A DNA stretch of 64,000 nt, from positions 186,001 to 250,000 of the forward strand of contig BRLC01000004.1 in assembly GCA_024343425.1 (NCBI GenBank), in the 5' to 3' direction. This document shows, in pieces, positions 14,135 to 39,244 of the stretch (positions are counted from its first letter, which is position 1; each line of letters begins with the position of its first letter). The position numbers and the translations under genes are program-made. The notes under the pieces are model-generated. The model searched no databases and was not told where the DNA came from. It saw only the letters and a program-made list of their open reading frames with translations. Source of the stretch: Rhizobiaceae bacterium MnEN-MB40S (lineage in GTDB: Bacteria > Pseudomonadota > Alphaproteobacteria > Rhizobiales > Rhizobiaceae).

Positions 14135-14197
14135 GCTGCCGCCAAATTGGTCGAATTCAGAGCGCAGGACAACCCCCGGCACGTCTTTCAAGCGCGG

Positions 14198-16294: not shown

Positions 16295-16297
16295 TCG

Positions 16298-21995: not shown

Positions 21996-22288
21996 GCGCG
22001 CCCGCCGGACAAATATATTGCGCGGCAAAATGAAAACGTTCAGAATTGCGCGGGGTTAAACAATTACTGGATTCGTTGCTTCGCCTGTTGTCATCTGCGA
22101 CAACGCACACCTTGTGGCGACACGCAAGAATTGCCGTCAGGCGCCGTCGGATCCGCAGGAGAGGGTTATTTGATTTACCGGCTTCGCATAGGTGAGCATG
22201 CAGGGCGCATGCCCAGGAGCATGCGTGGGCAAACGCACAGTCGGCTCACGCCGTGTGCTGCTACACATCCGACGAACCGGACAATGTG
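21996..22288 (+). promoter_or_regulatory. Upstream region of the pseudo-ABC/PKD/cyclase gene cluster
   Basis: This gene-free stretch precedes the six-gene plus-strand cluster. It contains a perfect inverted repeat GTTGTC/GACAAC (22087-22104, 6-bp spacer) and three GCATGC hexamers at 22196, 22207 and 22219, spaced 11 and 12 bp, about one helical turn. The last two form a 7-bp hairpin (CGCATGC 22206-22212, GCATGCG 22219-22225). A possible -35 TTGATT lies near 22170. Operator function is inferred from symmetry and spacing only. Confidence 0.5.
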
Positions 22289-25069
22289 ATGAACGCCTTC
22301 AGCCGCAATCATAACGCGCACCCAAGGCCGTCGACCGAGCTGGAGCCCAGCCTGCTCAAATATATCTGGAAAAATTCCAGGAACGACCAGATATGGATGC
22401 TGGTCGTCATCCTCGTGTCGATGATTCCTTACTACATGACGCTCGATTTGCCGAAATCGATCGTCAATGGCCCGATTCAGGGCAACGGTTTCGAGAATCC
22501 GGGCGCGACCTCCAAGTTCATGGAAATCTACCTGCCCTATGGCGACGCCATCTTCGGTCAGCCGGTTCTCCTGTTCGGCGGATTTGAACTCGACAGGATT
22601 GGCCTGCTCTTCGCGCTGTCCTTCATGTTCATTTTCCTGGTTGCGGTGAATGGCCAGTTCAAGCGCTATATCAACACCTTCAAGGGCCGCATGGGCGAGC
22701 GCATGCTGCGCCGGATGCGGTACGAACTCTTCGATCGCGTGCTTCGCTATCCGCTGAGGCATTTCCGCCAGGTCAAGTCGTCGGAAGTCTCCTCGATGAT
22801 CGTTAACGAGGTCGAACCGATGGGAGAATTCATCGGCGACGCCTACACGCAGCCCTTGTTGATGGGCGGACAGGCGATTACCGGTTTCGGGTTTATCGCC
22901 GTCCAGAATGTCTATCTCGGCATTCTGACGCTCGTCGTGATCGGTTTCCAGGCGGTTATCATTCCAAGGATGCGCCGCCGGCTGATCGCTCTTGGCCGCG
23001 AACGCCAGATCAAGTCGCGCGAACTGGCCGGACGCCTCGGCGAGATCGTCGACGGAATTCAGGACGTCCATACCAACGACACAACGAATTTCGAGCGCGC
23101 CACGATTTCGAGCCGTCTCAGCAATCTGTTTTTCATCCGCTTCGAAATCTATCAGCGCAAATTCTCCATCAAGTTTTTCAGCAACATGCTGATCCAGTTC
23201 CTGGCCTTCCTGTTTTATGCAGTGGGCGGTTACATGGCGATCCGCGGATCGCTCGATATCGGTCAGCTTGTCGCCGTTATCGCGGCGTACAAGGACCTGC
23301 CCGGACCGATCCGCGGGCTCCTCGACTATGACCAGCGGCGTTTGACGGCCGAGGCCCGCTACAATCAGGTCGTCGAGCAGTTCTCCGTGCCCAATCTTCA
23401 GGATCCGGACATGCAATCGCTTCCGGAAGGCGAGGTTCCTCATTTCGCCTCAGGCTACAACCTTTCCAACGTGCAGGTGCTGGACGATTCCGGAAACCGT
23501 TTGCTCGACGGCGTAACGACGAAAATCGATATCGGGGAGCGCGTCGTCCTGTTGAGCGACAGCAGCGAACCCCTCAGCGTCTTTGCAAAAACGCTTGCCC
23601 GCGTCACCGATATCAGTTCCGGAAAACTGACGATCGACGGCAAGGAAGTGGACGCCTTGCCGGAATACATGGCCGGACGGTTGATCTCCTATGTCGACAG
23701 CAGCACGTTCTTTCCGCAAGGAACAATCTACGAAACGCTGACCTATGTTCTCAAGAACCATCCGCCTGAGCTTTCCGAGGAGGAAGCGAAAAATTATGAG
23801 ATGACGAAGCTCGAGATCATCGAGGCCAAGCGGACCGCAAACAGTCTGCTTAATGCGGAAGTCGACTGGATCGACTACGGCAAAGCCGGCGTCTCGAACC
23901 AGATAGAACTCGATGCAGAGATCTACCGTATCTTAAGCGATCTTGCGATGCAGAAGGACATTGTCGCCTTCGGCTTGCGCGCAACCGTGAACGCCGAGGA
24001 AAACGAGGAATTCTGCAAAGGCATCCTGGAGGCGAGAAACGAATTCCGCTCCAGTTTCACGGAACTCGGTCTCGAAAACTCCGTCGAGACCTTCGAATAC
24101 GACAACTACAACAATTTCGCCAATATCGGAGAGAATCTGCTTTTCGGAACGTCGTCGGATCCCGACTATGAGCCGGAAAACCTGCCGTCGAACAAGATGA
24201 TCCGGAAATTGCTGGCTTCCGAAGGCCTGGAAGAACCACTGTTCGCCATGGGCAAGGAGGTGGCCGAAACGACCGTCGAACTCTTCAGCGGCCTGTCGGA
24301 AGACAATCCATTCTTCGATCAGCTGGAATATCTCAAGCCGCAGGAACTTCCCGAATACAACGAGGCGATCAGCAGGGTGGCGTCGGCCAGCTACAAGGAC
24401 ATCAACGAGAAGGACAAGAAGCGTTTCCTCAGGCTTGCCTTCACCTATACGGAATCGCGTCACCGCCTCGGCCTTCTCGACGATGAACTGATGGACAAGA
24501 TCGTCAAGGCGCGGAAGGCTCTTCGCGAGGAACTGGAGGAACTGCCGCAAAATCCGGTCAATTTCTATGATCCTGGCGCTTACATGTCGTCAGCCAGCGT
24601 TCTGGACAACGTCCTTCTTGGCCGTATTTCTTCAACAATGGCCGGCGCGGAAGACGCCGTGACGGAAGCCATTTTGCGGATTCTCGATGAACTGGGGCTG
24701 CAGGGCAGCGTGTTCCGCATCGGCCTCAACTTCAACATCGGATCGGGCGGCAAGCGGATGTCGGAAACACAGCGCCAGAAAATGCATGTGGCGCGCGCGA
24801 TCCTGAAAAACCCGGATGTTCTGATCGCCAATCAGCCTCTGTCCGGCGTTGACCCGCAGTCGCAGAGGCGAATTCTGGAATCTATTCTGGAGCGGGCGAA
24901 GGCATCGGAAAAAGGAGGTCCCGCGATCATCTGGGCGCCAACCGACCAAAGCGTCGCGACATTGTTCGATCGGGGGCTTAAGTTCGAAGGCAACAAGATT
25001 ACGGGTGATGACAAACCCGGAAAATTGCTGGATGATTCCACAGATGAAAGCGAACTGGCCGGAGCTTGA
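22289..25069 (+). CDS. ABC-exporter-like protein with degenerate, probably inactive nucleotide-binding domain
   Basis: A 926-residue half-exporter architecture: an ABC transmembrane domain (about residues 25-370, with VVILVSMIPYYM and other helices, RLGEIVDGIQDVHTND) followed by an NBD. Every ATP-handling motif is damaged. The Walker A slot (423-430) reads SDSSEPLS with Lys replaced by Leu429; the Q-loop Gln is Ser471; the signature keeps SGG (819-821) but reads SGGKRMSETQ; Walker B DE is Asn848-Gln849 in VLIANQPLSGVD; the H-switch His is lost in IIWAPTD (about 885). An acidic helical insertion fills about 490-765. ATG 22289 is used; an in-frame GTG 12 codons upstream is possible and neither has a clear ribosome site. 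It is probably a membrane scaffold or regulator rather than a pump. Confidence 0.8.
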   Translation: MNAFSRNHNAHPRPSTELEPSLLKYIWKNSRNDQIWMLVVILVSMIPYYMTLDLPKSIVNGPIQGNGFENPGATSKFMEIYLPYGDAIFGQPVLLFGGFELDRIGLLFALSFMFIFLVAVNGQFKRYINTFKGRMGERMLRRMRYELFDRVLRYPLRHFRQVKSSEVSSMIVNEVEPMGEFIGDAYTQPLLMGGQAITGFGFIAVQNVYLGILTLVVIGFQAVIIPRMRRRLIALGRERQIKSRELAGRLGEIVDGIQDVHTNDTTNFERATISSRLSNLFFIRFEIYQRKFSIKFFSNMLIQFLAFLFYAVGGYMAIRGSLDIGQLVAVIAAYKDLPGPIRGLLDYDQRRLTAEARYNQVVEQFSVPNLQDPDMQSLPEGEVPHFASGYNLSNVQVLDDSGNRLLDGVTTKIDIGERVVLLSDSSEPLSVFAKTLARVTDISSGKLTIDGKEVDALPEYMAGRLISYVDSSTFFPQGTIYETLTYVLKNHPPELSEEEAKNYEMTKLEIIEAKRTANSLLNAEVDWIDYGKAGVSNQIELDAEIYRILSDLAMQKDIVAFGLRATVNAEENEEFCKGILEARNEFRSSFTELGLENSVETFEYDNYNNFANIGENLLFGTSSDPDYEPENLPSNKMIRKLLASEGLEEPLFAMGKEVAETTVELFSGLSEDNPFFDQLEYLKPQELPEYNEAISRVASASYKDINEKDKKRFLRLAFTYTESRHRLGLLDDELMDKIVKARKALREELEELPQNPVNFYDPGAYMSSASVLDNVLLGRISSTMAGAEDAVTEAILRILDELGLQGSVFRIGLNFNIGSGGKRMSETQRQKMHVARAILKNPDVLIANQPLSGVDPQSQRRILESILERAKASEKGGPAIIWAPTDQSVATLFDRGLKFEGNKITGDDKPGKLLDDSTDESELAGA

Positions 25070-25131
25070 AGATTGGTGCTATATATTGATCCCTGTTATT
25101 TTTTGATTGTCAGCAGATCGAGGCGCAGCTG

Positions 25132-25611
25132 ATGAAAAGCACCCTCAACAGCGAAGTTGAAATGCTTCGAACCATCCCGCTGTTTGCCGGGGTTGATCCA
25201 GCCAAACTCAAACTGCTCGCTTTTTCGTCCGAGCGTGTGACTTTCAGCGACGGACAAATCATTTTCAAGCAAGGCAAGGAAGGCGACAACGCCTACGTGG
25301 TTCTCGACGGAAACGCCGATGTGATTTTTGAAAAGGACGGAGAGGAAATTCCGGTCGCCGAAGTGGGAAAGAACGCTCTTATCGGTGAATTGGCCATCCT
25401 GTGCAATGCGCCCCGCTCCGCCACCGTCAGGGCGAAGGGAAGGCTGGAGGCGCTCAATATCAAGAAAGAGTACTTCCTCGGCCTGATCACGGAATTTCCG
25501 AATATCGGCATCCATGTCATGCAGCTGCTCGCGAAGGACATCACCAACGCCACGCGCGAATTGGCGAACGCCCGCATGGAACTTGCAAAGCATACCTCAG
25601 AACAGCACTGA
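25132..25611 (+). CDS. Stand-alone cyclic-nucleotide-binding domain protein
   Basis: A 159-residue protein consisting of one CAP_ED/cNMP-binding domain (residues 10-125) and a C-terminal helix (126-159) with heptad-like spacing. The phosphate-binding cassette is intact: Gly85-Glu86-Leu87-Ala88 and Arg95-Ser96-Ala97-Thr98, as in cAMP-binding proteins, where Glu and Arg contact the ribose and phosphate. It has no DNA-binding or kinase domain, so it must signal through a partner. It lies 62 bp after the pseudo-ABC gene on the same strand; an adenylate cyclase ends the cluster. Partnering with the dead ABC protein is an inference from order. Confidence 0.9.
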   Translation: MKSTLNSEVEMLRTIPLFAGVDPAKLKLLAFSSERVTFSDGQIIFKQGKEGDNAYVVLDGNADVIFEKDGEEIPVAEVGKNALIGELAILCNAPRSATVRAKGRLEALNIKKEYFLGLITEFPNIGIHVMQLLAKDITNATRELANARMELAKHTSEQH

Positions 25612-25851
25612 CTATACCGGGAACGTTCGTCCGGCGGCGCCTGAGGCCAGGCTGTCGTAACCTCTTTCGGCTCAGAGGGCTCACCCCCAGGTTGGCGAAT
25701 CCGCATAATCAGACAAAGTACAGACTGCGGCGGCGTTTATTGTTTCACATAAATTTTCTGTTACCGGATGCGTAAATAGCAAGTAACACCGGATTGCAGC
25801 ACATGCGGCGTCCAAGTTTCCAGTTGTAATCACATATGCTTCGTCTGTACT
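25612..25851 (+). promoter_or_regulatory. Intergenic region with candidate promoter/operator
   Basis: A 240-bp gap, the largest inside the cluster, with an AT-rich part at 25730-25790. It includes an inverted repeat TGTTAC (25759-25764) / GTAACA (25783-25788), each followed by CCGG. A second promoter for the three envelope-protein genes could lie here. No terminator was evident after the cNMP gene. Confidence 0.35.
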
Positions 25852-28281
25852 GTGTTGCGGGGCGCAGGAAATTGGGGAACTTGGGTCGCCTTGAAGCTTG
25901 AGCGTTTGGCACGACCGGCTGCCTTGGCATTGCTAACCACAATCGCCATCCTTCTTCCCGCTATGGAGCGAGAGGAAACCAATGCGTTTGCCCAGACTTC
26001 CGAGGCGTTGACAGGGGCGCTCGCCCTGGAAGACGAGTTCGTCACGATCGCCATGCTTCCTGGCGCCAATCTTCGCGACATTGCGGCGGAATATCTCGAC
26101 GATCCGGATCTGTGGCCCATTATTCTGAGCCTGAATAACATAGGCGACGTTACGGAGATCGCCGAAGGCCAGGAACTGCAACTCCCGACAAGCCAATTGC
26201 AAACGGCGGTCACGGCGCTCGCCGCATCCCTTGAGAGCATTCAACTCGCGAATGAGGCCGGCGCCCAGTTGTTTGCGCCCATCCTGATCCGAAACGCAAT
26301 CACCTTGCGCGACGAGGCGATCAGGGAAAAGCAGAACGGCGTTTACAAAGAGAGCATTCTGCTGTCGTCCCGTTCGATCGACCGGGCGGAATCCGCACGC
26401 AAGAAAAGTCAGGAAAATCGTGACGTTGAGGCTGAAGCCCGTCTCAGCGATCGGCAGGGTTGGGTCGAAGGCCAGAAAATACAGGAAAACAGCTGGACGC
26501 AACGCGAACTCAACGCCGTTCTCAATGAGCAGGAAAAGCTGAGGACCCTGTCGAGTTCGACCGCTCAGGTCGTGTTCCGCGACGCCAGCCGGCTGCGTCT
26601 CAACGCCAATTCTCAAGCTGTCATCGAGCGTATGCGCGCAGATCCGCTGCAACGCAGCGAAGACGCCCAGATCAGTCTCGTGCAGGGCGATTTCTACGCT
26701 TTGCTTGCATCGGAGACCAATCGAAACCGCCTGGAAGTCAACTTGCCGAACGCCGACGCCACGATCGACTCGGGTAGTTTCTGGGTCAGCCAGGACCAGT
26801 CAGGCGCAAAGTTTTCGAACTTCGACGTCAAACCTGTTTCCGTCACCGCAGCCGGGGAAACGACGGTGCTCGGCCGCAATGAGGGCGCGGTGATTCGCAA
26901 CGGCAGAGCGCCTGAGGAAAAGGTCAATATCCAGGGTCGCGTCCATCTGGTTTCGCCGGATGAAGGCGCGGTGATCTACGGCAACAACGCCGAACTCGTG
27001 TGGGACTCGATTGGAGGCGGAGAACAATATTGGGTGGAAATCGCCTACGACCCGCGTTTCGACCGTATGGCGAAGAGCCTTTTTGGAATTGACGGCGCGC
27101 AGGTCGGAAACCTTGAACTGGATCCCGGCAGCTATTTCTGGCGCGTCGCGGCGATCGACGCCTTCGGCCTGCCGGGGCAAATGAGCACGGTGCGCAAATT
27201 CGAGGTCCGGTTCGACGATACGCCGCCATTCCTCAAGATCCTCGCCCCCGGACCGGATGCAATCCTTCGCAAGGCGTCCGTCACGCTGGAGGGAGAAACC
27301 GAACCGGAAGTGGAAATCATCATCGAGGGCGACCGCTTCGAAATCGGGTCCGATGGCCGCTTCGGGTATGAAATGGAAGCTGTTGAAGGTGAAAACAGCG
27401 TTACGGTGACAGCCATCGACAGGGCCGGCAACGAAACGCAGCGCATTGCAAAATTCACCTATCTCAGGGACGAGAATACGAACATCGCCTTTGACAGCGC
27501 CCTGATCCGCGACGAGCGCGGCCGCTTCCTGACGGCTGGCGAGACCCTGACGTTATCCGGCAAGGTAAAGGCGGACGCAAAAATATCCGTCCTTGACGCT
27601 GACGGGACCATCCGCTCCGAAACCTATGCGGAGCCGGACGGCGCCTTCCTCGTCAACATTCCCCTTTCCAGCGACGAGGAAAACCTAGCAATCCGGGTGA
27701 CGAGCCCCTCGGGTCACGCCTATGAAGAACCCCTCGAAGCCATTGTTCTCGACACAGCGCCCGCGATACGCTTTTCAAGCCCGCCGCCGCTCGTAACGTC
27801 CGAGCCGTTGCTGCAATTGGCGGTCGAGACGGATCAACCGTCAAGCGTCATTGTGAATGGACGCGAGGCGAGAGCGGAGAATGGCGCCGCCCATGTCGAG
27901 ATCGAATTGCAGCAGGGACCGAACCTGATTGAAACCGTCGCCACGAATGCGGTCGGCCTTGTCACGATCGACAAGCGGACGGTGATTTTCGACACCGAAG
28001 CGCCCACCATCACGCTTCAGAACATCAAGGTTACGCCGAAAGGCGACACAACCCTTGTTTCGCTGAATATCGGAGCTTCCGATGCATCCGGCCTGGCGAA
28101 GACGTCGCGTTTCAACATCCGCTCGGGCGAGCAGCAACACAGCGGCGTATTGCGCTTCAACAAGATCCGGAAGGCCTATCAGGGAAGCATGGAAATTCCG
28201 ATCGGGGAGGATGAAATGATTTTCGAAATCGAAATCGCCGATGTCGCCGGCAACGTCAACAATCTGAGGCTTGTGCAGTAA
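25852..28281 (+). CDS. LysM-FecR-Ig-like repeat envelope protein
   Basis: An 809-residue exported protein. Residues 20-48 form a signal or anchor segment; 62-112 resemble a LysM domain (DIAAEYLDDPDLWPIILSLN, EGQELQLP), suggesting peptidoglycan contact; 120-235 are helical and charged; 238-352 match a FecR-like domain (LVQGDFYALL, TIDSGSFWV); about 370-455 look fibronectin-like (GSYFWRVAAIDAFG); the rest is three or four bacterial Ig-like or glucodextranase-B-like modules (VTAIDRAGNETQRIAKF). GTG 25852 is assumed; a TTG near 25891 is a possible later start. The stop and the next ATG overlap (TAATG). It probably tethers the PKD proteins to the wall or inner membrane. Confidence 0.75.
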   Translation: MLRGAGNWGTWVALKLERLARPAALALLTTIAILLPAMEREETNAFAQTSEALTGALALEDEFVTIAMLPGANLRDIAAEYLDDPDLWPIILSLNNIGDVTEIAEGQELQLPTSQLQTAVTALAASLESIQLANEAGAQLFAPILIRNAITLRDEAIREKQNGVYKESILLSSRSIDRAESARKKSQENRDVEAEARLSDRQGWVEGQKIQENSWTQRELNAVLNEQEKLRTLSSSTAQVVFRDASRLRLNANSQAVIERMRADPLQRSEDAQISLVQGDFYALLASETNRNRLEVNLPNADATIDSGSFWVSQDQSGAKFSNFDVKPVSVTAAGETTVLGRNEGAVIRNGRAPEEKVNIQGRVHLVSPDEGAVIYGNNAELVWDSIGGGEQYWVEIAYDPRFDRMAKSLFGIDGAQVGNLELDPGSYFWRVAAIDAFGLPGQMSTVRKFEVRFDDTPPFLKILAPGPDAILRKASVTLEGETEPEVEIIIEGDRFEIGSDGRFGYEMEAVEGENSVTVTAIDRAGNETQRIAKFTYLRDENTNIAFDSALIRDERGRFLTAGETLTLSGKVKADAKISVLDADGTIRSETYAEPDGAFLVNIPLSSDEENLAIRVTSPSGHAYEEPLEAIVLDTAPAIRFSSPPPLVTSEPLLQLAVETDQPSSVIVNGREARAENGAAHVEIELQQGPNLIETVATNAVGLVTIDKRTVIFDTEAPTITLQNIKVTPKGDTTLVSLNIGASDASGLAKTSRFNIRSGEQQHSGVLRFNKIRKAYQGSMEIPIGEDEMIFEIEIADVAGNVNNLRLVQ

Positions 28282-31142
28282 TGCCGCTGCGCCGTCGCAC
28301 GAAACCGGCCTTGGCGTCGGCCCTCGCCGCAGTATTTGTCGCGGGCGCTCTGCTTCCCGTCCGCGCCGAAGACCCTGAATCGCCTGCACACACGCCGCTT
28401 CTGGTAACGTTTGGACCGCGCGCTGCGCAGTCGGAAGGCGACCACGACTATCGGCAACTCGTTCGTATTTCCGCGCCGTCTGACGCCGGCCAGCTTTATA
28501 TCCGCGTCTACGATCCCGACGTCGGCGGCGCCCATGACGAACCCTTGGCGGGCTTTGACACGCAAACCCGCTTCAGCCTCTACGGAAACGGGTCCGAAGC
28601 CACGATCTTCCGCGATCCGCAAGGCGTTATTCAGGAAACCGTCATGGGCGAGCCGATCGGCTCCGTCGAATTCCGGTCGGACGGCGAGGCCGACGGACGC
28701 TGGGTCACGTTGTTTACGGTCGATGCATCCGATGGCGTTGAGCGCGGCGAAATGCGCGAGTTCGTTCTTGCCGTTGAAGGGGTGTCCGGCAATGACGGCA
28801 ACGTCTTCGACGTTTTCGTCAGCCGGCAGGAAAATGAAAATGTCGCTCCCGACGGAACCAGCGTTTTTTCCTACGTACCGACGTTCCAGTCACCGGAAGA
28901 GGGCGTTTCCGTCGAACTGCGCTTTCGAATTCCGCAGGACGCGGACGCGCTGGATGTCGAGAATTTCGATGCGGCGCGTGGTGAAATCGCCTATGGGGGC
29001 CGCTTCCGTTCGCTCCCGCTTGGAGCATCCAACAAAAGCGAGTGGATACGCGACAGGATTGCACTGGAAGCCGACGAGCCGGGCCGCCTCGGATCGGTGA
29101 CCTTCGCCGGAGGCAACGAGTCGCCGAACGATCTGACCGTTTTCGCAGGCGCGCCGATGGACGGCGCAAATTCCGTCGCAACACCCGTGCCGGTGGAACT
29201 TCCGTTGCGGGTGTTTGCATTCAATCGACGGCCATTGACGAGCTTCAACAAACGCCAGACGGCCTGTCTGGAAATGCGCTTCGGCGCGTCCGCCTCCATC
29301 GATCCCGACACGGATCCGCTCACCCACTACTGGCGGTTCGACGGCGAAGGCCCCTGGATACCCGGCGCGGTGCTGAGCCATGTGTTTGACGAACCGGGAG
29401 ACCATACAGGTCGCCTGGAAGTGTTCGACGACACGGGCATGGTGGCTAGCGGGGACGCCTTCGACTTCTCCTTCTACGTAAAGCCCCGTCCCGTGGCCGC
29501 CTTCGAAAATCCGTCTCTTGCAGCGCAAGACGCCGAGGTGCAGTTTGACGCAACGGCCTCATCGACAGTCGATCGGCCGGCCGGCAACCACATCGTTGAA
29601 TACCATTGGGACTTCGGAGACGGCGACAGGCTTGTCCAGCGCGAGGGCGATCCGGATTTCGGCAAGCCTGTCCACGCCTACAGAAAATTCGGCGACTATA
29701 CGATCGGCCTGACTGTCGTCGATTCCGCTGACAATCCCTGCAACACAGGCAGCATAACGGGAACCATAGAGATCAACGCGCCGCCGGTCGCGGACGCCGG
29801 TGGGGATCGCGAATTGCTGACTGGCGAGATCGCGAAATTCGACGCCTCCGCATCCCATGATCCCGACGGCTCCGTGACCTATCATCATTGGAATTTCGGC
29901 GACGGGACCGAATCCATTCGCCAGGTGACCGAGCACGCCTGGCACCGGCCCGGCGCCTATGAAGTCACGCTGTCCGTTCTCGACGATTCGGCCTTTGACA
30001 CAGCACGGGATTCCGAAACAATCACCGTCACCGTGCGCGACGCCGTCAATAGGGAGCCTCAGGCCATCGCCGGACCGGATCGCGCCGCCGCCGTCGGCAA
30101 GCCGTTCGCGCTTGACGCAAGCGGGTCATCGGACAGCGACGGTTCGGTTCTCGTTTACGACTGGGATTTCGGCGACGCCACCGGCGCGAACACGCCCAAA
30201 ATCAGTCACACCTACTGGGAGCCCGGCGCCTATCCGGTGACTTTGAAAATCAGGGACAATGACAAGGGCGAAGCCATCGACACGCTTGTCGTCACTGTCG
30301 CGCCTCCGGACAACAGGGCGCCGCTCATCGATTTTCCGTCGCGGTTCCGCACGATGGCCCACGAGCCGCTGCGTTTCGACGCATCTGAAGCAGACGATCG
30401 CGACGGCTCGATCATCGCCTTTGAATGGGATTTCGGAGACGGGACAATTGGTCTGGGTCCAGTCATCGAACACCGCTACGACGCGCCGGGCGTGTACGAT
30501 GCAAAGCTGACGCTCACCGACAATGGCGTCCTGAACAGGCAATCGAGCACGATCGGCTTTCAGGTCGACGTCGCCCACAGACCCAATGAGAGACCGACAG
30601 CGGACGCTGGTGAGGACGTAACAGCGGTCGCCGGTTCTTCCATTGCGTTGAGCGCCGCCGGCTCGACCGATCCGGATGGTTCGATCATCGCCTATGAATG
30701 GGATTTCGGAGACGGCAATCGATCCACGGGCGTCGACACGCGACATATCTACCAGTTTCCGGGGACCTATCGGGTCAGACTGAAAATCACCGATGACGGC
30801 CGTAGCGGCGATCGTCTCGAACACGAAGACAGTCTAACGATAACCGTGCTGCCGGCGGAAAACATGGAACCCGTGGCGATCGCTGGCGGGGACCTTCTGG
30901 TCGGCGTGCAGGAGATTGTCCGGTTCGACGGTTCACCGTCCTACGATCCGGACGGGAATATCATGCGATACCAGTGGGACTTTGGAGACGGCGGCAAATC
31001 GCCTGACCGGCGCCCCTACCACGCATTTCATGATCCGGGAGACTATGGAGTGCGGCTGGTCGTGACCGACGACGGCGAGGAACCGAAGACGAGCGAGGCG
31101 GCGTTCACCGTCACGGTCAGGGAGGCAGGCGCAGAAAAATGA
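28281..31142 (+). CDS. Secreted PKD-repeat protein, shorter paralog
   Basis: A 953-residue exported protein: signal peptide to about residue 30 (cleavage near PVRA-ED), an unrecognised beta-rich domain to about residue 320 opening with LVTFGPRAAQSEGDHDYRQL, then about seven PKD modules, the first degenerate (HYWRFDGEG) and six with W(D/N)FGD cores. PKD modules act as rigid spacers or adhesion modules on surfaces. The N-terminal domain is shared with the downstream 2112-residue protein. Both junctions overlap (TAATG upstream, ATGA downstream). There is no membrane anchor or sorting signal at the C-terminus, so how it is held at the surface is unclear. Confidence 0.82.
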   Translation: MPLRRRTKPALASALAAVFVAGALLPVRAEDPESPAHTPLLVTFGPRAAQSEGDHDYRQLVRISAPSDAGQLYIRVYDPDVGGAHDEPLAGFDTQTRFSLYGNGSEATIFRDPQGVIQETVMGEPIGSVEFRSDGEADGRWVTLFTVDASDGVERGEMREFVLAVEGVSGNDGNVFDVFVSRQENENVAPDGTSVFSYVPTFQSPEEGVSVELRFRIPQDADALDVENFDAARGEIAYGGRFRSLPLGASNKSEWIRDRIALEADEPGRLGSVTFAGGNESPNDLTVFAGAPMDGANSVATPVPVELPLRVFAFNRRPLTSFNKRQTACLEMRFGASASIDPDTDPLTHYWRFDGEGPWIPGAVLSHVFDEPGDHTGRLEVFDDTGMVASGDAFDFSFYVKPRPVAAFENPSLAAQDAEVQFDATASSTVDRPAGNHIVEYHWDFGDGDRLVQREGDPDFGKPVHAYRKFGDYTIGLTVVDSADNPCNTGSITGTIEINAPPVADAGGDRELLTGEIAKFDASASHDPDGSVTYHHWNFGDGTESIRQVTEHAWHRPGAYEVTLSVLDDSAFDTARDSETITVTVRDAVNREPQAIAGPDRAAAVGKPFALDASGSSDSDGSVLVYDWDFGDATGANTPKISHTYWEPGAYPVTLKIRDNDKGEAIDTLVVTVAPPDNRAPLIDFPSRFRTMAHEPLRFDASEADDRDGSIIAFEWDFGDGTIGLGPVIEHRYDAPGVYDAKLTLTDNGVLNRQSSTIGFQVDVAHRPNERPTADAGEDVTAVAGSSIALSAAGSTDPDGSIIAYEWDFGDGNRSTGVDTRHIYQFPGTYRVRLKITDDGRSGDRLEHEDSLTITVLPAENMEPVAIAGGDLLVGVQEIVRFDGSPSYDPDGNIMRYQWDFGDGGKSPDRRPYHAFHDPGDYGVRLVVTDDGEEPKTSEAAFTVTVREAGAEK

Positions 31143-34100
31143 CATTTTCGTATATGCGCGCATCCCTCTTCAAACACGCCTTCGCCTCCGCGGCGTCCCT
31201 GCTTGCAACCCTGCCTGTCCAGATCACGCCTGGCGGTTCGCACGGTACGGCGCTCGCTCAGGACAATGAATACGCCGACACCCGGGCGCTCGTGACCTTC
31301 GGCCCGGCCGCCCGCCGGATCGAAGGCGATCACGACTTCCGGCAATTCATCCGCTTTTCGGCGCCGGAGGATGCAGGCGCGCTTTATTTGCGTGTCTTCG
31401 ACCCCGACAATGGCGGCAAGCATGACGAGACGATCGGTTTCAACAGGGGGCACACGCGCTTCAGCCTGTACGGCGCCGGTTCCGACATGCGCCTGTGGCG
31501 CGATGAAGACGGCGTCGTCCAGGAAAACGTCGAAGGCGAAGCCATTACCTCCGTCGAGTTCGGGACAGACCCGGACATTGACGACACCTGGCAGGGGCTC
31601 TTCGTGTTCGACTCCGAGGACGGCAAGCCGACAGGCGATGGCCGCCGGGAGTTCGTGCTGGCCGTCGAAGGCGTCGACGGCGACGGAGGCAACGTCTTCG
31701 ATGTCGCCGTCAGCACCTCGGAAACCGGCAACGTCCAGCCGGACGCTCTCGAGATCTACAGCTACATGCCAACCTTCCAGGTCTCTCGCAGGGGCACATT
31801 CGTCGAACTGCGCTTTCGGATACCGGACAGCGCCAAATCGCTTGTCGTGGAAAACTATGATTCCGCCGGCGGCCATGTCGCCTATGCGGGCCGCTTCCGC
31901 ACCGTTCCAATCGAAGCTTCGCGCAAGAGCGAATGGAGCAGAAGCCGCGTGGAGCTTGACGCCTCGGAGCCGGGCCGCATGGGCTCCGTCACCATGGCGG
32001 AAGGCGGCGAAACGCCCAACGACGTCACGGTGTTCATCGGAGCGCCGGTCAACGGCGACGACGCGGTGGAACAGCCGGTCGCCATCGAACTGCCGCTGCG
32101 TGTCTTTGCGTCCTATCCGCGACCCGAAGTCGCATACAATCTGCAGCCAGGCGTGTGCGGCGACATGACGTTCGACGCTTCCGCGTCGCTCGATCCGAGA
32201 GGCGGACCACTCGCCTGGGCCTGGCGACTGAACGACGGCGACGAGGTGCTTTCCGGAGCGGAAATACAGCAAAGCTTCGAAGAGCCGGGCGACTATCCTG
32301 CGCGTCTCGAGGTATTCAATGACAGCGGCATGATCGCCAGCGGGAGCGCAACCGACTTCTCTTTCTTCGTGAAGCCGCCGCCGGTCGCGCGCCTCGAAGC
32401 CCCGGCCCTCGTCGCCCAGGGCGCGGACGTCCTTTTCGACGGAACCGGTTCGACAACGCAACCCCGCCCCAACGGCAACCATATAAGCCGATATCACTGG
32501 CGCATGGGCGATGGCGGGGAGATTGTTCAGAACGAAGGCGATCCGGATTTCGGCAAACCCGTCTATGTATATGAAAATCACGGCGTCTTCACGGTTGAAC
32601 TGACCGTCACGGATTCCGCCGGCAACCCCTGCGACAGCGCCTCTGTGACGCGCCAGGTCACAGTCAATGCAAAACCGCTCGCCGAAACGGGCGGCGATCG
32701 CCGGATAGCCTTCGGCGATGCGATCGCCTTTGACGCAGGGGATCCGACGGGCCCCGACGGCGATACGCATCAATTCGCATGGGATTTCGGCGACGGCGCA
32801 ACGGCGACAGGCGCGAAGGTCGAACACACCTACCAAAAGCCGGGAACATACGCCGTCTCATTGCGCGTCGATGACGGGAAAGGCGCGGAAAACAGCATTT
32901 CAACCGATACGGCCAGCGTTTTCGTCAATGCGTCACCGGACGGCGCAGCCGCTGTCATTCCCGACATCATGCAGCCGAACACGCCGGAGATTTTCGACGC
33001 TTCCGGCGCTTTCGACAGCGACGGCGAAATCACCGCCATCGAATGGTCGTTCAGCGACGGCGTGACGACCGACAAGACCGCATTCAAACACATGTTCCGC
33101 GATCCCGGCGACTATACGGTCACGCTCAAGCTGACGGACGATTCCAACCTCGGCAACGCGGTGACGGAAATCACAAAGACGATCTCCGTGCCGGATCCCG
33201 GCAACATAGCGCCGGTTGCGGATCCCGGCGGCGACCGGCAGGCGCTGGTCGGCGAGATCGTCACCTTCGACGGCTCGGCGTCCAGCGACGCCGATGGCTC
33301 CATCCTCGACTACAGATGGGATTTCGGCGACGGACAGGTCCGCGACCGTCTCACGGTCGATCACGCCTATCACAATCCGGGCGCCTATACGGTGACGCTC
33401 GAGGTTACCGACGATTCCGGTCGCGAGAACGCCACATCCGCCGCCTCTTTCACCATCGTCGTCGCCAATCGCGACAACCAGTCGCCCATCGTGACAGCCG
33501 GCGGCGACCGCGCGGCTTTCGTGAACGAGATCATCGAATTCGACGCATCCGCCTCGATCGACGTCGACGGCAATCTGATGTCCGTGGACTGGGATTTCGG
33601 CGATGGCGGCGTGGCCTCCGGCAAGACTGCCTTTCACAGCTACGCCGAACCGGGCGACTATCTCGTCAGCGTGATCGTCAGCGACGATTCCGGACTTCGC
33701 GGCGCCGTCACCGCCAGGCAGTTCACGGTCGCAGTCACCCATGCGCCCAACGAGGCGCCTCGATCCGATATTCCGCAAACGCTGCGTCTGAAGACCAAGG
33801 TCCCGCACCAGTTCGACGCGAGCGCAGCGCAGGATCCGGACGGCAACATCATCAGTTTCGCCTGGGACTTCGGCGATGGCGGCGCATCGCACAGGCCGGT
33901 CGTCGACCACGTCTACGATCGGCCGGGCGTCTATGAAGGCTCGCTCACGCTGACAGACGATTCCGGGCTGCCGAGCGGCGTCACGGTGCGCGATTTCAAG
34001 GTCTTTGTCGAGGAAAAACCCAACGAGGCGCCGATCGCCGAGGCGGGAGTGGACATCACCGCGATTGTCGGCGAGCGGATCGATTTCGATGGCGGCGGTT

Positions 34101-37100
34101 CGACCGACGCCGACAGCAGCATCGTCTCCTACCACTGGGATTTCGGGAACGGAAAGACGGCGATCGGCCAGAAACGGTCCATCGCCTATTTCGATCCCGG
34201 CGCCTACGAGGTCGTCCTGACCGTGACCGACAATTCCGGACAAGCCAATGCGTCCGGCAGCGACAGCCTCACGGTCACCGTCAACGACCGCCCCAACGCC
34301 ATGCCGGTCGCAAGGGTTCCGAAAGACCGGCCGGCGGCGATCGACGAAGCAATTGAATTCTCCGCGGCCGAGTCGGAAGACCCGGACGGAAACATCCTTT
34401 CCTACGAGTGGGATTTCGGCGACGGAAACACCGCCAGCGGCCGCGAGGTCAGTCATCTCTACGAGAAATCCGGAACCTATGTGGCGCGGCTGACAATCCG
34501 TGACGACTCCGGGCTGGAAAACCAGAACTCCATCAGCGAACGGACCATTGTCATCAACGAACCGCCGGTCGCCGAGGCCGGTCCGGACCAGCACGTCACC
34601 GCATCCGAAGTCATCTTCGACGCGTCGCAATCTTATGACCTGGACGGCGAGATCATTTCCTACGAATGGGATTTCGGCGACGGCCAGCGCGGAACCGGGC
34701 AAAGGGTCGCCCACACCTATCGCGCTCCCGGCGTCTATGACGTCGGCCTTTATATCGTCGACAGTTCCGGCACCATCCGCAACGACGCGTCGGATTCGAT
34801 GACGGTGATCGTCAACGCTCTCCCGGTCGCCGACGCCGGTTTCGACGTGGTGACGGCTCCCGGCGAAACGCTGACTTTCGACGGGCGTCGATCGAGCGAC
34901 CCGGACGGCGAAATCGCCCGCTATCTGTGGAATTTCCGCGACGGAAATGAAGCCGAAGGAGACGTCGTCAGCCACGCATTCTCGAAGCCGGGCTACTATT
35001 CGGTGGAACTGCGCATCTATGACGACACAGGCCACGAGGAAGCGACCGATTTTTCGCAGATCCTCATCACCGTGAACGACCAGCCGACGGCCGAAGCCGG
35101 TCCGGATCTTTCGGTCGCTCCGGGTGAGGCCTTCATCCTGTCGGGCGCAGGCTCCACCGACCGGGACGGCTCGATCACCAGCTGGCGCTGGGATATCCAG
35201 AACACCGAGGAGACGCTGGAAGGCGAAACGGTCGAACACAGTTTCGAGGAACCTGGGATTTACACGATCACGCTGACCGTGACGGACGACAGCATCGCAT
35301 CGAACCGCACGGCTCAGGACGAACTTACGGTCGAGGTAAACCACGAACCGGTTGCGGAAGCAGGCCATGACATCGTCAGCGACCAACTGCGCATCGTCTT
35401 CAACGCCGGGGCCTCGGCCGATCCGGACAATGACGGCCTGACCTATATGTGGGATTTCGGCGATGGTTCGAAAGCCGCCGGCGCCGAGGTCGAGCATGTT
35501 TATGAAACAGGCGGCGTCTATCCGGTACTGCTGACGACAGACGACGGGCGCGGCCTCGCCAACTCGACCGACACCGACGCCCTGACCGTTTCGATCAACC
35601 GGACGCCGGTCGCCGTTGCGGGAGAAGATAAGCAGGCATGCGTCGGCGACATATTCGTCTTCGACGCGAGTTCCTCGGTCGATCCGGACAACGGCCTTCT
35701 CCTGTATGAATGGGATTTCGGCGACGGAAATACGTCGACCATCATCAATCCGACCAAGGTTTATGAAGATCCGGGCGTCTTCAAGGTCCGCCTCTCCGTG
35801 CGCGATGAATCGGGTCTCGCCAACGCGACCCATTCCGATGAGGCGCTGATGACGGTCTTGCCGGCGCCGGAGGCCCATGCCGGCCCGGACATCGAGGTTT
35901 GCGCGGGAACTCCCATTCGTTTCGACGGTTCGGAATCGAGCGACGTGGACGGCGTCGTCAACCGCTTTTCGTGGGACTTCGGCGACGGCCAGACCGGCGG
36001 CGGCGACCGGCCCGAGCACATCTACTATGACGCCGGCGTCTACCGCGTTTCCCTGCAGATCGAAGGTGACAACCTGGGGCTCTGTTCGCCGATCTCCACC
36101 GACGACATCCAGGTGACGGTGCTGCAGGCGCCGGTCGCGCTCGTCAATGGCCCGACATCGGTCGCCGCCGGAGAAGAGGTGACGTTTGACGGGTTCGGCT
36201 CGAGCCTCGAAGGCGGCGTCATCGCCGCCTATGAATGGGATTTCGGCGACGGACGGGTCGCTTCAGGCGGCAAGGTCAGCCATGTCTTCGAACAGCCGGG
36301 CCTCTATCATGTCCGGCTGCAGGCCAGCGCGACGGAGGATCTTGGCGGCTGCGCCAGCACGGAAACGATCCATCTGGTGACGGTCAACGCAGCGCCCATG
36401 GCGCAGATCGACGCGGCGCCGGTTGTCGAGGTCAACAAGCCACTCGTGCTCAGCGGCGCCGGGTCGTCCGATCCCGACGGAGGCGTCTCGGAATATGCCT
36501 GGGATCTCGGCGACGGCGCCGCTGCCACGGGCGTTGAAATACGCCACATCTGGCGAGAGCCCGGTCTTTACGCCGTCACCCTCAAGGTGGACGACGGAAC
36601 TGGCCTTGCCAACGCCGCCGACGAAGCGCTCTTCGAGGTGACGGTCCTGCCGGCGCCGGCAAGCGAGATCGACGGCCCGGCGATCGCCTGCGTCGGCGAG
36701 CCCGCGCCTTTCGCGCTTACCAATTTGCCGGAAGGAGCCGACAGCAGCCGCGCGGCCTGGACCTTCGGCGACGGAAACGGCGCTGAAGGCGAAACCGCCG
36801 CCCACGCCTATGCAAAATCCGGCGTCTATTCGGTCAACGCAATCCTGCCGGTCGAGCGCGCGGGTGAAGTGCTGCAGACACCCGTTTCGCGCAGCATCAC
36901 CATCAATCGGCCGCCGGTCGCAATCATCGACGTCGTTCGCAAGACCTGCGCTGGCGAAGACGTTGTATTTGAGGCATCCCGGTCCTTCGATCCCGATGGC
37001 GAAGCAATCGCCTATCACTGGGACTTCGGAGACGGAACTGTCGCCGAAGGGCCAACCGCGGAACACAGCTATGGCGAACCCGGTTCCTATCGCGCCGTCC

Positions 37101-37477
37101 TGACGGTGACGGACGCAACCGGTTCGCAATGCGCGGCCATAGAACAGGCCGTGGAGATTTTCGTCAATGCGCCGCCGGTCGCCGACGCCGGACCGGATAT
37201 TGACCTTCTCATCGGCGGCGCTCACGATTCTTTTGTCCTTGACGCCGGCCGGTCCACCGACGCAGACGGCGATCATCTCGAATATTACTGGATCCTATCC
37301 AACGGGCTGGAGCTTGATGGTGAAAAAGCCCGCGTGGAATTCAGTGAACCGGGCGTCGTGGAGGTGGAGTTGACCGCGGGAGATCCCCATGGTCTGGCCT
37401 GCAGTATTTCCACGGATGTCATGACGATACGGACCAGGACGAGGGAAGCGTCGACAACGCTGTCGCACCTGGAGTAA
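31139..37477 (+). CDS. Giant secreted PKD-repeat protein
   Basis: A 2112-residue exported protein, the largest in the window. The N-terminus has a signal peptide (cleavage near TALAQ-DN, about residue 42), then the same unrecognised domain as the upstream paralog to about residue 335 (FGPAARRIEGDHDFRQF), then some twenty PKD modules. Most have WDFGDG cores; modules 1, 2, 12 and 20 are degenerate. Modules are about 85-90 residues, many ending in VTVN and beginning PVAEAG. The C-terminus is plain. It probably forms an extended stalk or adhesin. The start overlaps the upstream gene by 4 bp. The long reverse-strand open frames across it are shadows of its regular codons. Confidence 0.85.
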   Translation: MTFSYMRASLFKHAFASAASLLATLPVQITPGGSHGTALAQDNEYADTRALVTFGPAARRIEGDHDFRQFIRFSAPEDAGALYLRVFDPDNGGKHDETIGFNRGHTRFSLYGAGSDMRLWRDEDGVVQENVEGEAITSVEFGTDPDIDDTWQGLFVFDSEDGKPTGDGRREFVLAVEGVDGDGGNVFDVAVSTSETGNVQPDALEIYSYMPTFQVSRRGTFVELRFRIPDSAKSLVVENYDSAGGHVAYAGRFRTVPIEASRKSEWSRSRVELDASEPGRMGSVTMAEGGETPNDVTVFIGAPVNGDDAVEQPVAIELPLRVFASYPRPEVAYNLQPGVCGDMTFDASASLDPRGGPLAWAWRLNDGDEVLSGAEIQQSFEEPGDYPARLEVFNDSGMIASGSATDFSFFVKPPPVARLEAPALVAQGADVLFDGTGSTTQPRPNGNHISRYHWRMGDGGEIVQNEGDPDFGKPVYVYENHGVFTVELTVTDSAGNPCDSASVTRQVTVNAKPLAETGGDRRIAFGDAIAFDAGDPTGPDGDTHQFAWDFGDGATATGAKVEHTYQKPGTYAVSLRVDDGKGAENSISTDTASVFVNASPDGAAAVIPDIMQPNTPEIFDASGAFDSDGEITAIEWSFSDGVTTDKTAFKHMFRDPGDYTVTLKLTDDSNLGNAVTEITKTISVPDPGNIAPVADPGGDRQALVGEIVTFDGSASSDADGSILDYRWDFGDGQVRDRLTVDHAYHNPGAYTVTLEVTDDSGRENATSAASFTIVVANRDNQSPIVTAGGDRAAFVNEIIEFDASASIDVDGNLMSVDWDFGDGGVASGKTAFHSYAEPGDYLVSVIVSDDSGLRGAVTARQFTVAVTHAPNEAPRSDIPQTLRLKTKVPHQFDASAAQDPDGNIISFAWDFGDGGASHRPVVDHVYDRPGVYEGSLTLTDDSGLPSGVTVRDFKVFVEEKPNEAPIAEAGVDITAIVGERIDFDGGGSTDADSSIVSYHWDFGNGKTAIGQKRSIAYFDPGAYEVVLTVTDNSGQANASGSDSLTVTVNDRPNAMPVARVPKDRPAAIDEAIEFSAAESEDPDGNILSYEWDFGDGNTASGREVSHLYEKSGTYVARLTIRDDSGLENQNSISERTIVINEPPVAEAGPDQHVTASEVIFDASQSYDLDGEIISYEWDFGDGQRGTGQRVAHTYRAPGVYDVGLYIVDSSGTIRNDASDSMTVIVNALPVADAGFDVVTAPGETLTFDGRRSSDPDGEIARYLWNFRDGNEAEGDVVSHAFSKPGYYSVELRIYDDTGHEEATDFSQILITVNDQPTAEAGPDLSVAPGEAFILSGAGSTDRDGSITSWRWDIQNTEETLEGETVEHSFEEPGIYTITLTVTDDSIASNRTAQDELTVEVNHEPVAEAGHDIVSDQLRIVFNAGASADPDNDGLTYMWDFGDGSKAAGAEVEHVYETGGVYPVLLTTDDGRGLANSTDTDALTVSINRTPVAVAGEDKQACVGDIFVFDASSSVDPDNGLLLYEWDFGDGNTSTIINPTKVYEDPGVFKVRLSVRDESGLANATHSDEALMTVLPAPEAHAGPDIEVCAGTPIRFDGSESSDVDGVVNRFSWDFGDGQTGGGDRPEHIYYDAGVYRVSLQIEGDNLGLCSPISTDDIQVTVLQAPVALVNGPTSVAAGEEVTFDGFGSSLEGGVIAAYEWDFGDGRVASGGKVSHVFEQPGLYHVRLQASATEDLGGCASTETIHLVTVNAAPMAQIDAAPVVEVNKPLVLSGAGSSDPDGGVSEYAWDLGDGAAATGVEIRHIWREPGLYAVTLKVDDGTGLANAADEALFEVTVLPAPASEIDGPAIACVGEPAPFALTNLPEGADSSRAAWTFGDGNGAEGETAAHAYAKSGVYSVNAILPVERAGEVLQTPVSRSITINRPPVAIIDVVRKTCAGEDVVFEASRSFDPDGEAIAYHWDFGDGTVAEGPTAEHSYGEPGSYRAVLTVTDATGSQCAAIEQAVEIFVNAPPVADAGPDIDLLIGGAHDSFVLDAGRSTDADGDHLEYYWILSNGLELDGEKARVEFSEPGVVEVELTAGDPHGLACSISTDVMTIRTRTREASTTLSHLE

Positions 37478-37513
37478 AACCGTTGTCCTTCCTGAATCAG
37501 AACCGGGCAGACG

Positions 37514-39244
37514 ATGCGTTTTAACCTTCGTTCCAAAATGATGATCTTCGCAGCGCTGATCGCGGTGCTGCCGCTCGTGGTCGCGGGCCAGTCGATCATT
37601 CGTGTGGCCCGCGACGAATTGAAGAGCGCCGCCAACGAGCAGCTTGTCAGCACCGCGCGTCAGGTCACCAACGAATTCAACGCCTTCTTCGAATATTCGC
37701 TCTTTGTGCCGCTCGATCTCATCCGCAATGCGATCGGCGGAGAAACGCTGGATTCCCGCTCCAAGATCACGCTCCTCAAACAGGGAATCGCCGACCTTCC
37801 GGACGTGGTCTCCCTGCAGGTCGACATAGAGGGCGCGCCGCGGCCGATCGTTGTCTCGCAGGAAGCCTATGTCCGCACGCTGGCGGAACATTTCGAGGAT
37901 CCCGTCAGCATTCTTCAGGTCGACCCCGAAGACGTCCAACCACAGACGGAATCGTCGCAGAGGGCGACCAATGTCGAATTCATCGCCGAAACCGGCGACT
38001 GGCTGGCGACGGTAAGCCTTCCAATACCGGGAGGCATTGGCGGCAGGAATGCGACACTCTACGCGCGCATCAATCTCGAACGCCTGAAACGCTTCATCAC
38101 CAAGCATCCGTTTGCGCGCACCGGCATCATTCATGTCATCAATGGCGAAGGCGATATCGTCTATGGCACGACCGAGGGCGAGTACGAACACGAAAGCGTA
38201 TCTTTGATGGCGCAACAGATGCTGTCTTCCAGACAGGCTGTCATCGCCGTCGAACCGTTTCAACTTGCCGACGGGTCGATTTCGCTTGGAGCGATCACCC
38301 TTGCGCGAGCTTTGCCGTGGGCGGTCGTGGTCGAAAAGTCCGAAGCCGACGCCTATGCCCCGATCAGGGACATGATCCGAAGTCTGTTGCAGTGGCTCGG
38401 CATCGGCGTCGCCGTGGCCATGCTCGGCGCCGCCTTCTTCGCGCTCAGGATTTCACGCCCGATCCTCCACATCGGCGAGGCGGCGATCGAAATCGCGAAG
38501 GGCAATCTGGACGTCAGGGTCGACAATGTCCGCTCCCGCGACGAAATCGGGGATCTCGCGAAGCGCTTCAACGAGATGATCGTGCAACTGGCCGAACGGT
38601 TCGAATTGCAGAAATTCGTGTCGCAAGGCACGATGAAGGCGATCAGCGGCAGTTCCGATCGCGAGGTCTCCCTTGGCGGCGAACGTCGCAGCGTGGCGAT
38701 CCTGTTTGCCGATATACGCGGCTACACGGCCTTTTCCGAAACCCGTGAGCCCGAAGAAGTGGTCGAGGTGCTCAACAGCTACTTCCAGAGGATCACGGAC
38801 ATCGTGGTCGCCAATCACGGCGATATCGACAAATTCGTCGGCGACGAGATCATGGCTGTCTTCGGAGGCGCCAACCAGTCGAAACATGCGGTCGAGTGTT
38901 CGCTCGCAATCATGCAGGTCATGGAAGAAATGCGGCTGACCTCGAAGGCGGACCTGAGGATCGGCATCGGCGTCAATGTCGGCGAAGTGGTCGTCGGCGC
39001 CATGGGCAGCAACCAGCGCAAGGACTTTACGGTGCTTGGCGACCACGTCAATCTGGCCGCCCGCCTCTGTGGTCAGGCCGGACCGGACGAGACCTGGATC
39101 TCGCGCAATGTCCACGAGCAGTTGCCGGCAAAATTGACCAGCCAGGCGCGCCGGATCGAGCCGATCGCCGTGAAGGGAAAGAAAGACCGGATCGAGGTCT
39201 TCGTCTATGACGGTCCCGGGAAATCCGAGTCGGACGCGGCCTAG
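37514..39244 (+). CDS. Membrane sensor class III adenylate cyclase (Cache-like/HAMP/cyclase)
   Basis: A 576-residue transmembrane receptor cyclase. TM1 is residues 8-27, an extracytoplasmic Cache-like sensor fills about 30-285, TM2 about 290-312 and HAMP about 313-375. The class III catalytic domain (390-560) has all key residues: metal Asp400 in FADIRGYT and Asp444 in KFVGDE, adenine-selecting Lys440, and Asn513 and Arg517 in GDHVNLAAR. Lys440 and Asp510 indicate ATP rather than GTP. It lies 36 bp after the giant PKD gene and 6 bp before an esterase gene. It likely makes the cAMP read by the cNMP-binding protein at 25132, tying envelope sensing to that protein. Confidence 0.9.
   Translation: MRFNLRSKMMIFAALIAVLPLVVAGQSIIRVARDELKSAANEQLVSTARQVTNEFNAFFEYSLFVPLDLIRNAIGGETLDSRSKITLLKQGIADLPDVVSLQVDIEGAPRPIVVSQEAYVRTLAEHFEDPVSILQVDPEDVQPQTESSQRATNVEFIAETGDWLATVSLPIPGGIGGRNATLYARINLERLKRFITKHPFARTGIIHVINGEGDIVYGTTEGEYEHESVSLMAQQMLSSRQAVIAVEPFQLADGSISLGAITLARALPWAVVVEKSEADAYAPIRDMIRSLLQWLGIGVAVAMLGAAFFALRISRPILHIGEAAIEIAKGNLDVRVDNVRSRDEIGDLAKRFNEMIVQLAERFELQKFVSQGTMKAISGSSDREVSLGGERRSVAILFADIRGYTAFSETREPEEVVEVLNSYFQRITDIVVANHGDIDKFVGDEIMAVFGGANQSKHAVECSLAIMQVMEEMRLTSKADLRIGIGVNVGEVVVGAMGSNQRKDFTVLGDHVNLAARLCGQAGPDETWISRNVHEQLPAKLTSQARRIEPIAVKGKKDRIEVFVYDGPGKSESDAA

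Follow-up and report, generated by a model that had tools for sequence, protein, structure and literature searches.

An ATP-binding cassette (ABC) exporter joined to a cyclic nucleotide monophosphate (cNMP)-binding domain has a precedent in HetC of Nostoc, a peptidase-containing exporter whose N-terminal cNMP domain is needed for its function (PMC10986499, in the part of the article available). The 64,000-nucleotide stretch of Rhizobiaceae bacterium MnEN-MB40S analysed here (the window; positions 186,001 to 250,000 of contig BRLC01000004.1, which is contig 4 of a 4.13-Mb genome assembly, GCA_024343425.1, 79% complete) encodes a different arrangement of these parts, an ABC-exporter-like protein with a degenerate ATPase followed by a small stand-alone cNMP protein (together, module A). 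Both HetC and module A join an ABC exporter fold to a cNMP-type domain. However, as far as the available part of its description goes, HetC requires its ATPase residue, contains a peptidase domain and binds guanosine tetraphosphate (ppGpp) best, whereas in module A the ATPase motifs are lost, Pfam finds no peptidase domain, the cNMP domain is placed at the C-terminus or on a protein of its own, and the genes usually lie in a glycosyltransferase locus. ABCB-type (MsbA/MDR-like) exporters share with the module A protein the transmembrane fold, the domain order and profile matches across both halves, but in the latter the catalytic motifs are degenerate, a Q-loop/helical segment occurs threefold and about 300 extra residues are present. 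Cyclic di-GMP controls the secretion of polysaccharides such as cellulose, alginate and Pel. Module A would resemble those systems in having an inner-membrane secretion component under the direct control of a second messenger, but the messenger class, the receptor domain (cNMP) and the membrane component all differ.

The genes that follow module A in the window encode a FecR-domain protein, two PKD proteins and a membrane class III adenylate cyclase (module B), a variant of known FecR-cyclase sensors. A Campylobacterota cluster contains genes for a CHASE2 cyclase, a FecR outer-membrane protein, a TPR protein and a phosphodiesterase (PMC9239204, available part). Module B likewise has a FecR-domain envelope protein encoded with an adenylate cyclase; compared with what that source describes, it differs in its Cache-like sensor in place of CHASE2 (no CHASE2 match in Pfam), in its PKD stalk proteins and in having no TPR or phosphodiesterase gene. 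In Sinorhizobium meliloti, SMc02177 (FecR) and SMc02178 are targets of the cyclic AMP (cAMP)-dependent regulator Clr, and the genome encodes 28 adenylate cyclases, 25 of them besides CyaD1, CyaD2 and CyaK (PMC5498481, available part). Here again, and in the same family, a FecR-domain envelope protein is tied genetically to cAMP signalling, but that part of the article describes neither PKD proteins nor a pseudo-ABC protein, unlike modules A and B.

The six genes of the window are two separate conserved modules that lie side by side in one genus. From sequence comparison, the most probable reading, at roughly 0.6, is that module A acts as a cAMP-controlled pseudo-transporter of a polysaccharide pathway and that module B is a separate envelope sensor. 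The first-pass annotation of this DNA had instead proposed a single system of six consecutive plus-strand genes; all six open reading frames (ORFs) are present where it had placed them, and the features are as follows.

22253..25069, plus strand: module A ABC-exporter-like pseudo-ATPase, with a transmembrane region and a degenerate nucleotide-binding domain (motifs, Pfam, and a ratio of nonsynonymous to synonymous substitution rates, dN/dS, of 0.065-0.070)
22508..23284, plus strand: ABC_membrane transmembrane region, residues 86-344 (Pfam PF00664, E 1.3e-17)
23666..23980, plus strand: segment R1 of the triplicated Q-loop/helical segment, residues ~472-576 (hhalign R1-R2 and R1-R3)
24065..24259, plus strand: segment R2, residues ~605-669 (hhalign R2-R3, probability 98%)
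24533..24748, plus strand: segment R3, residues ~761-832, with the degenerate signature, Walker B and H-loop after it (hhalign, motif alignment)
25132..25611, plus strand: module A stand-alone cNMP protein with a canonical phosphate-binding cassette, GELAILCNAPRSA (Pfam; dN/dS 0.017-0.031)
25612..25851, plus strand: 240-bp gap between the modules, diverged near the cNMP gene, with the last ~90 bp before the FecR gene more conserved
25852..28281, plus strand: module B FecR-domain protein with Ig-like domains and, at its N-terminus, a weak LysM-like stretch (Pfam)
28281..31142, plus strand: module B PKD protein 1, with an N-terminal domain of ~300 residues without a Pfam match (Pfam)
31139..37477, plus strand: module B PKD protein 2, 2112 residues, with an N-terminal domain as in PKD protein 1, 57% identical (Pfam)
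37514..39244, plus strand: module B membrane adenylate cyclase, with a Cache-like sensor, HAMP and a class III catalytic domain (Pfam, catalytic motifs)

In each of the 32 module A loci compared (L012-L043; L and G numbers denote our loci and genomes), the ABC ORF either includes a cNMP domain itself or has one no more than 213 bp away. The pairing of the cNMP protein with the dead ABC protein, as first proposed for the window, thus extends to all 32 of these loci, by adjacency or by fusion. Fused ABC-cNMP proteins are encoded as single ORFs of 1022-1100 residues in seven of the 32 loci, and an eighth occurs in Ruegeria TM1040. On a tree of 42 ABC proteins (drawn without L002, L003 and L015), the fused state requires three changes, at least two of them forced by well-supported branches, so that fusion or splitting of the two proteins took place more than once. 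No other evidence for joint action of the two proteins is as strong as this adjacency or fusion with its repeated changes, which supports the cNMP protein as the dedicated partner of the ABC-like protein.

The cNMP protein of the window has 159 residues and matches a single Pfam family at E 0.01, PF00027 (E 2.2e-20), in agreement with the claim that it has no output domain. A CRP/FNR transcription regulator was considered and rejected, as the short protein has no C-terminal helix-turn-helix. The Glu and Arg of the phosphate-binding cassette are residues with a functional role in cNMP domains. Among 45 cNMP copies (L002 and L003 included, the second, separate cNMP protein of L027 left out), the Glu is kept in 43 (Asp in L013, Ala in L041) and the Arg in 44 (exception L034). 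By its fold, its Glu and its Arg, the protein has the sequence features of a cAMP receptor.

Pfam assigns to the ABC-like protein an ABC_membrane domain and a partial ABC_tran domain, and matches to MsbA/MDR profiles also indicate an exporter-type transmembrane domain. Across 32 aligned ABC proteins (without the near-copies L002 and L003 and the fragment L015), Walker A is intact in one (L030), the LSGGQ signature in none, the Walker B Asp-Glu pair in one (L038) and the H-loop His at its aligned column in none, L034 and L040 having a His one column later. The description of the protein as a pseudo-ATPase is therefore borne out by its motifs, and for the family as a whole: it lacks the motifs required of an ATP-driven ABC exporter and is not predicted to hydrolyse ATP. 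Chance decay of the gene is ruled out by its dN/dS (0.065-0.070, against two relatives), which places it under purifying selection. The ratio is 0.054 in the membrane half versus 0.084 in the dead domain, and that of the cNMP gene is lower still (0.017-0.031). The window protein is 97% identical to the copy of Flavimaribacter sediminis WL0058 and 93% identical to that of a Pararhizobium metagenome-assembled genome, which makes the source of the window a close relative of Flavimaribacter. Most family matches begin near residue 29 of the window protein, so that translation of the ABC gene probably starts downstream of the GTG given as its start codon.

Loss of these motifs would also fit a heterodimeric exporter in which the ABC-like protein supplies the degenerate half, the live half is encoded elsewhere and the cNMP protein tunes an ATP-driven pump. 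Eukaryotes have many exporters with a single degenerate site, and bacterial examples are known (PMC7756269, available part); moreover, one family member (L030) keeps Walker A. However, no live ABCB-type half is found among the recurrent neighbours of the clustered module A loci (the clustering misses some genes), and the live ABC genes that do recur belong to an Opp-like importer set. Moreover, Walker A, signature and H-loop are all lost, which exceeds the loss at described degenerate ABC sites. A heterodimer is thus unlikely. The L030 protein itself (genome G072), a fused ABC-cNMP protein with the Walker A sequence GATGSGKSS, is possibly an intermediate in the loss of the ATPase.

Between the Q-loop and the signature, one structure alignment leaves about 300 residues unmatched, and further copies of the Q-loop/helical segment lie there. 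Comparison of the copies in two hhalign runs gave probabilities of 77% and 83% for R1-R2, 95% for R1-R3 and 98% for R2-R3. Control probabilities were at most 1% in 24 comparisons of R1 to R3 with front segments of the same proteins, and at most 10.6% in six comparisons of front segments with one another. By these profile comparisons, the Q-loop/helical segment of the dead domain is triplicated. Three mosaic ABC proteins (G207:C22, G308:C48 and G362:C15) have a membrane half 55-59% identical to that of the window protein and a dead domain only 34-37% identical, as if the halves had separate histories. The ABC match on pSymB of S. meliloti 1021 (L046, ~13933-16716) is in two pieces and the Rm41 copy in one, and several module A matches are reported with one internal stop codon (for example, G213, G313, G381, G368 and G498), which may mark the end of the match or a truly broken gene.

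One draw of 199 genomes of the order was searched with each protein, PKD protein 2 having no search of its own. The ABC-like protein occurs in 73 of them (E 1e-40) and the cNMP protein in 93 (E 1e-18), including 70 of the 73. Module A is also present in 31 of 398 genomes drawn from the phylum, all of the same class, and 262 plasmid records carry the ABC-like protein (E 1e-40). Clustering and Pfam identify GT28-C type and GT4 glycosyltransferases, a metallo-beta-lactamase (MBL) hydrolase, a UDP-glucose dehydrogenase and cyclases as its recurrent neighbours, an undercount since simple ORF picking missed some real genes. On plasmid p42e of Rhizobium etli CFN 42, a cyclase gene is followed by an Opp-like ABC importer, three glycosyltransferase genes, the ABC-like gene (RHE_RS24195) and the cNMP gene (RHE_RS24190), and the glycosyltransferase that neighbours this pair is RHE_RS24210; the Phyllobacterium locus adds a polysaccharide lyase and a deacetylase-like protein, and pSymB of S. 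meliloti 1021 has matches to cyclase, lyase, importer parts, three glycosyltransferases, ABC-like protein and cNMP protein. In Rhizobium, Phyllobacterium, Ruegeria and Azospirillum alike, the Opp-like importer accompanies the glycosyltransferases or the ABC-like gene; its set of an ATPase, a family 5 binding protein and two permeases is seen in L044 (4182-10152), L047, L048 and L050. A radical SAM/SPASM protein (Pfam in L017, 5546-6673) is encoded immediately before the ABC gene in L017, L022 and L023, and its cluster also includes L032.

The conserved companion of module A is the GT28-type glycosyltransferase that comes first in the R. etli locus (GTa; presumably COG4671). It was found in 65 of the 199 genomes (E 1e-20): 64 genomes have both it and module A, nine module A only, one the glycosyltransferase only and 125 neither. 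In 53 of the 64 genomes with both, the glycosyltransferase and ABC genes are at most 20 kb apart, and in the remaining 11 they are on separate contigs; second glycosyltransferase matches with E above 1e-30, and second ABC matches that were weaker or partial, did not count for these distances. Such tight co-occurrence might also be expected of a membrane scaffold that recruits glycosyltransferases and moves no substrate, and so might a dead ATPase with selection kept on both domains. However, Pfam still recognises the transmembrane region as ABC_membrane, and its dN/dS is lower than that of the dead domain (0.054 versus 0.084). A mere anchor would not need such constraint, which weakens the scaffold explanation and leaves it rather improbable.

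Of 60 module A loci, 34 have a class III cyclase no more than 6 kb from the ABC gene. The set of 60 is not random, as it includes loci chosen for holding module B or for kinship to the window, and L002 and L003 were left out of it. The genome of S. meliloti is 6.7 Mb in size, and a cyclase density like that of this species (the 28 cyclases mentioned above per 6.7 Mb) predicts ~4.5%. The recurrence of class III cyclases beside the ABC-cNMP pair makes a cAMP link for module A credible. In the nearest relatives of the window's module A (L071-L079, ABC protein 50-56% identical), a cyclase with a Fer2 domain occurs upstream in eight of nine loci (directly in seven, 1.3 kb off in L077), the cNMP protein in nine of nine and an MBL protein downstream in nine of nine, and these stretches contain no FecR or PKD match. 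A role of the MBL neighbour as a cAMP phosphodiesterase was considered; its nearest solved relatives are of the RNase Z type. The L020 cyclase (10222-11892), to which those of L071-L074 and L076-L079 are similar, has a 2Fe-2S ferredoxin domain before its catalytic domain and, by eye, a membrane part, which suggests a redox input.

Module B is much rarer. Its FecR protein (E 1e-20), the N-terminal part of PKD protein 1 (E 1e-10) and its cyclase (E 1e-60) each occur in six of the 199 genomes, the same six, and the cyclase occurs in nine of 199 genomes of a family draw, for a union of 14 genomes. The order FecR, PKD, PKD, cyclase is kept in the nine genomes with the module on a single contig (G000, G079, G172, G217, G261, G300, G316, G357 and G370); contig ends cut it in the other five. 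A short version (FecR, one PKD protein, cyclase) is found on a plasmid of Skermanella mucosa, where the annotation of a 38-kb stretch includes no ABC-cNMP pair, and a second Skermanella plasmid also matches. Of the LysM/FecR protein described in the first-pass annotation, the FecR domain was recovered by Pfam, along with the Ig-like domains, but the window protein gives no LysM match in Pfam, even with the threshold relaxed to E 1; among four homologues, one has LysM at E 0.005 and one at 0.14, both below the cut-off. The two PKD proteins indeed contain Pfam PKD repeats (7 and 20 PKD_4 stretches). They have in common an N-terminal domain of ~300 residues (28281-29270 and 31139-32130; 57% identical) that has no Pfam match and is restricted, in the order draw, to the six module B genomes; its structure prediction (six sequences) reached a mean predicted local distance difference test (pLDDT) score of 46.1. 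The membrane cyclase has intact catalytic motifs, as claimed, and Pfam HAMP and Guanylate_cyc domains, with Cache below the cut-off; the motifs are kept in 12 of 13 aligned module B cyclases, L011 being without the last ones. The FecR and PKD proteins, read by eye, appear to be exported, and the cyclase sensor to be periplasmic. We infer from this composition that module B is an envelope sensor driving the cyclase.

In a single six-gene system, the Cache cyclase would set the cAMP level, the cNMP protein and dead ABC protein would sense it, and the PKD proteins would be displayed or exported as the output. In its favour, strand and order are kept in three genomes of one genus (G000, G217 and G316), and module A is present in 13 of the 14 module B genomes (Fisher p 0.026 in the order draw). 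In the family draw, module A occurs in nine of nine module B genomes versus 90 of 189 genomes in the family search for module A. Shared descent could explain the co-occurrence in both draws. However, the modules are adjacent in only those three of the 13 genomes that have both. In the ten others the FecR gene never follows the cNMP gene, and ABC gene and cyclase are separated by 149 kb (G300), 483 kb (G370) or 3.2 Mb (G261) or lie on different contigs (seven genomes). Moreover, G172 has module B without module A (E 1e-30), and 68 genomes of the order have module A without module B. With the second half of the cluster in six of 199 genomes versus 73 for the ABC-like protein, related genomes largely lack a conserved neighbourhood of the six genes, and the single system put forward in the first-pass annotation becomes very improbable. 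Module B as a conserved partner of module A is rejected on the same counts. Nor can the PKD stalks be the general cargo of the ABC protein, as had been suggested, because the conserved companion is a glycosyltransferase and PKD proteins are far rarer.

Three tight junctions had been reported and all are real: FecR and PKD protein 1 genes have one base in common (TAATG), the two PKD genes overlap (ATGA) and 36 bp separate PKD protein 2 from the cyclase. All three lie within the second half of the cluster, from FecR to cyclase, whereas 62 bp lie between the ABC and cNMP genes and 240 bp between the cNMP and FecR genes. A promoter and terminator scan of 25000-26000 returned one candidate of each kind, at chance level, and none above chance; conservation in the 240-bp gap hints at a separate start for module B.

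Nonetheless, module B sits where relatives of the window's module A carry another cyclase and an MBL gene, and may therefore be a local source of cAMP for module A. The window contains no MBL match, and a Fer2-cyclase query matches only the catalytic domain of the module B cyclase. One reading of this arrangement is a swap of the cyclase source, and an interaction between the modules is possible in the genus in which they are adjacent.

The reading of module A as a cAMP-controlled pseudo-transporter would work as follows. Cyclic AMP would bind the cNMP protein, which would sit on the dead cytoplasmic domain of the ABC-like protein, and the cAMP state, instead of ATP, would set the conformation of the membrane part. 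In turn, the membrane part would govern how the polysaccharide product of the linked GT28/GT4 enzymes is secreted or assembled. In module B, the periplasmic FecR/Ig protein and the PKD stalk proteins would relay a signal from outside the cell or from the wall to the Cache-HAMP cyclase for the production of cAMP; in this genus, module B may feed this cAMP to module A. We read module A of R. etli and S. meliloti in the same way.

Several observations weigh against this reading. The cNMP domain of HetC binds ppGpp, and cAMP gave no significant protection (PMC10986499, available part), a warning against assuming cAMP as the ligand of a cNMP fold. The ABC-like stretches of Azospirillum (L048) and of a Methylobacterium plasmid (L049) have no cNMP match at E 1e-8. 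The association of glycosyltransferase and module A (Fisher 5e-41) ignores shared descent, and nine module A genomes have no glycosyltransferase at E 1e-20. Among these is the window genome itself, in whose 79% complete assembly it was not found, although two congeners have it. The glycosyltransferase is not beside module A in the window's genus and near kin, and is far from it or on another contig in G217, G316, G261, G300, G370, G357 and G199. In 26 of the 60 module A loci, including that of the window, there is no cyclase within 6 kb. The dead ABC half could pair with a live one whose gene lies elsewhere. Finally, the structure prediction of the ABC protein (three sequences) was poor, with a mean pLDDT of 30.5.

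The genes flanking the six-gene cluster look unrelated to it. Upstream, on the minus strand, are genes for a HupE/UreJ protein and a gamma-glutamyltranspeptidase, and downstream the following gene directly adjoins the cyclase.

39251-40279, plus strand: HSL-type esterase, the seventh plus-strand gene, which starts 6 bp after the cyclase

After the esterase comes a minus-strand gene for a protein that, by the look of its sequence only, is MFS-like. The esterase also follows the cyclase in G316 (L063, 92%), and no esterase match lies beside the cyclase in L054, L056, L058 and L060.

No paper on the ABC-cNMP pair was found in the open-licence literature, nor any that joins at least three of PKD domain, FecR, adenylate cyclase and LysM. 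Module A is an unusual ABC fold that has stayed under selection after losing its ATPase motifs, with a helical segment triplicated internally. Its two proteins are a candidate receptor and effector at the membrane; the pair is widespread, its distribution follows that of a polysaccharide enzyme, and model symbionts amenable to genetics carry it. To our knowledge, the outputs of most S. meliloti adenylate cyclases are open. A bolder proposal, which we regard as doubtful, is that an alphaproteobacterial pseudo-ABC protein with a cNMP subunit has swapped ATP for cAMP and become a ligand-gated polysaccharide exporter or channel. If true, cAMP would control polysaccharide export directly, without transcription, in symbionts such as R. 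etli and S. meliloti.

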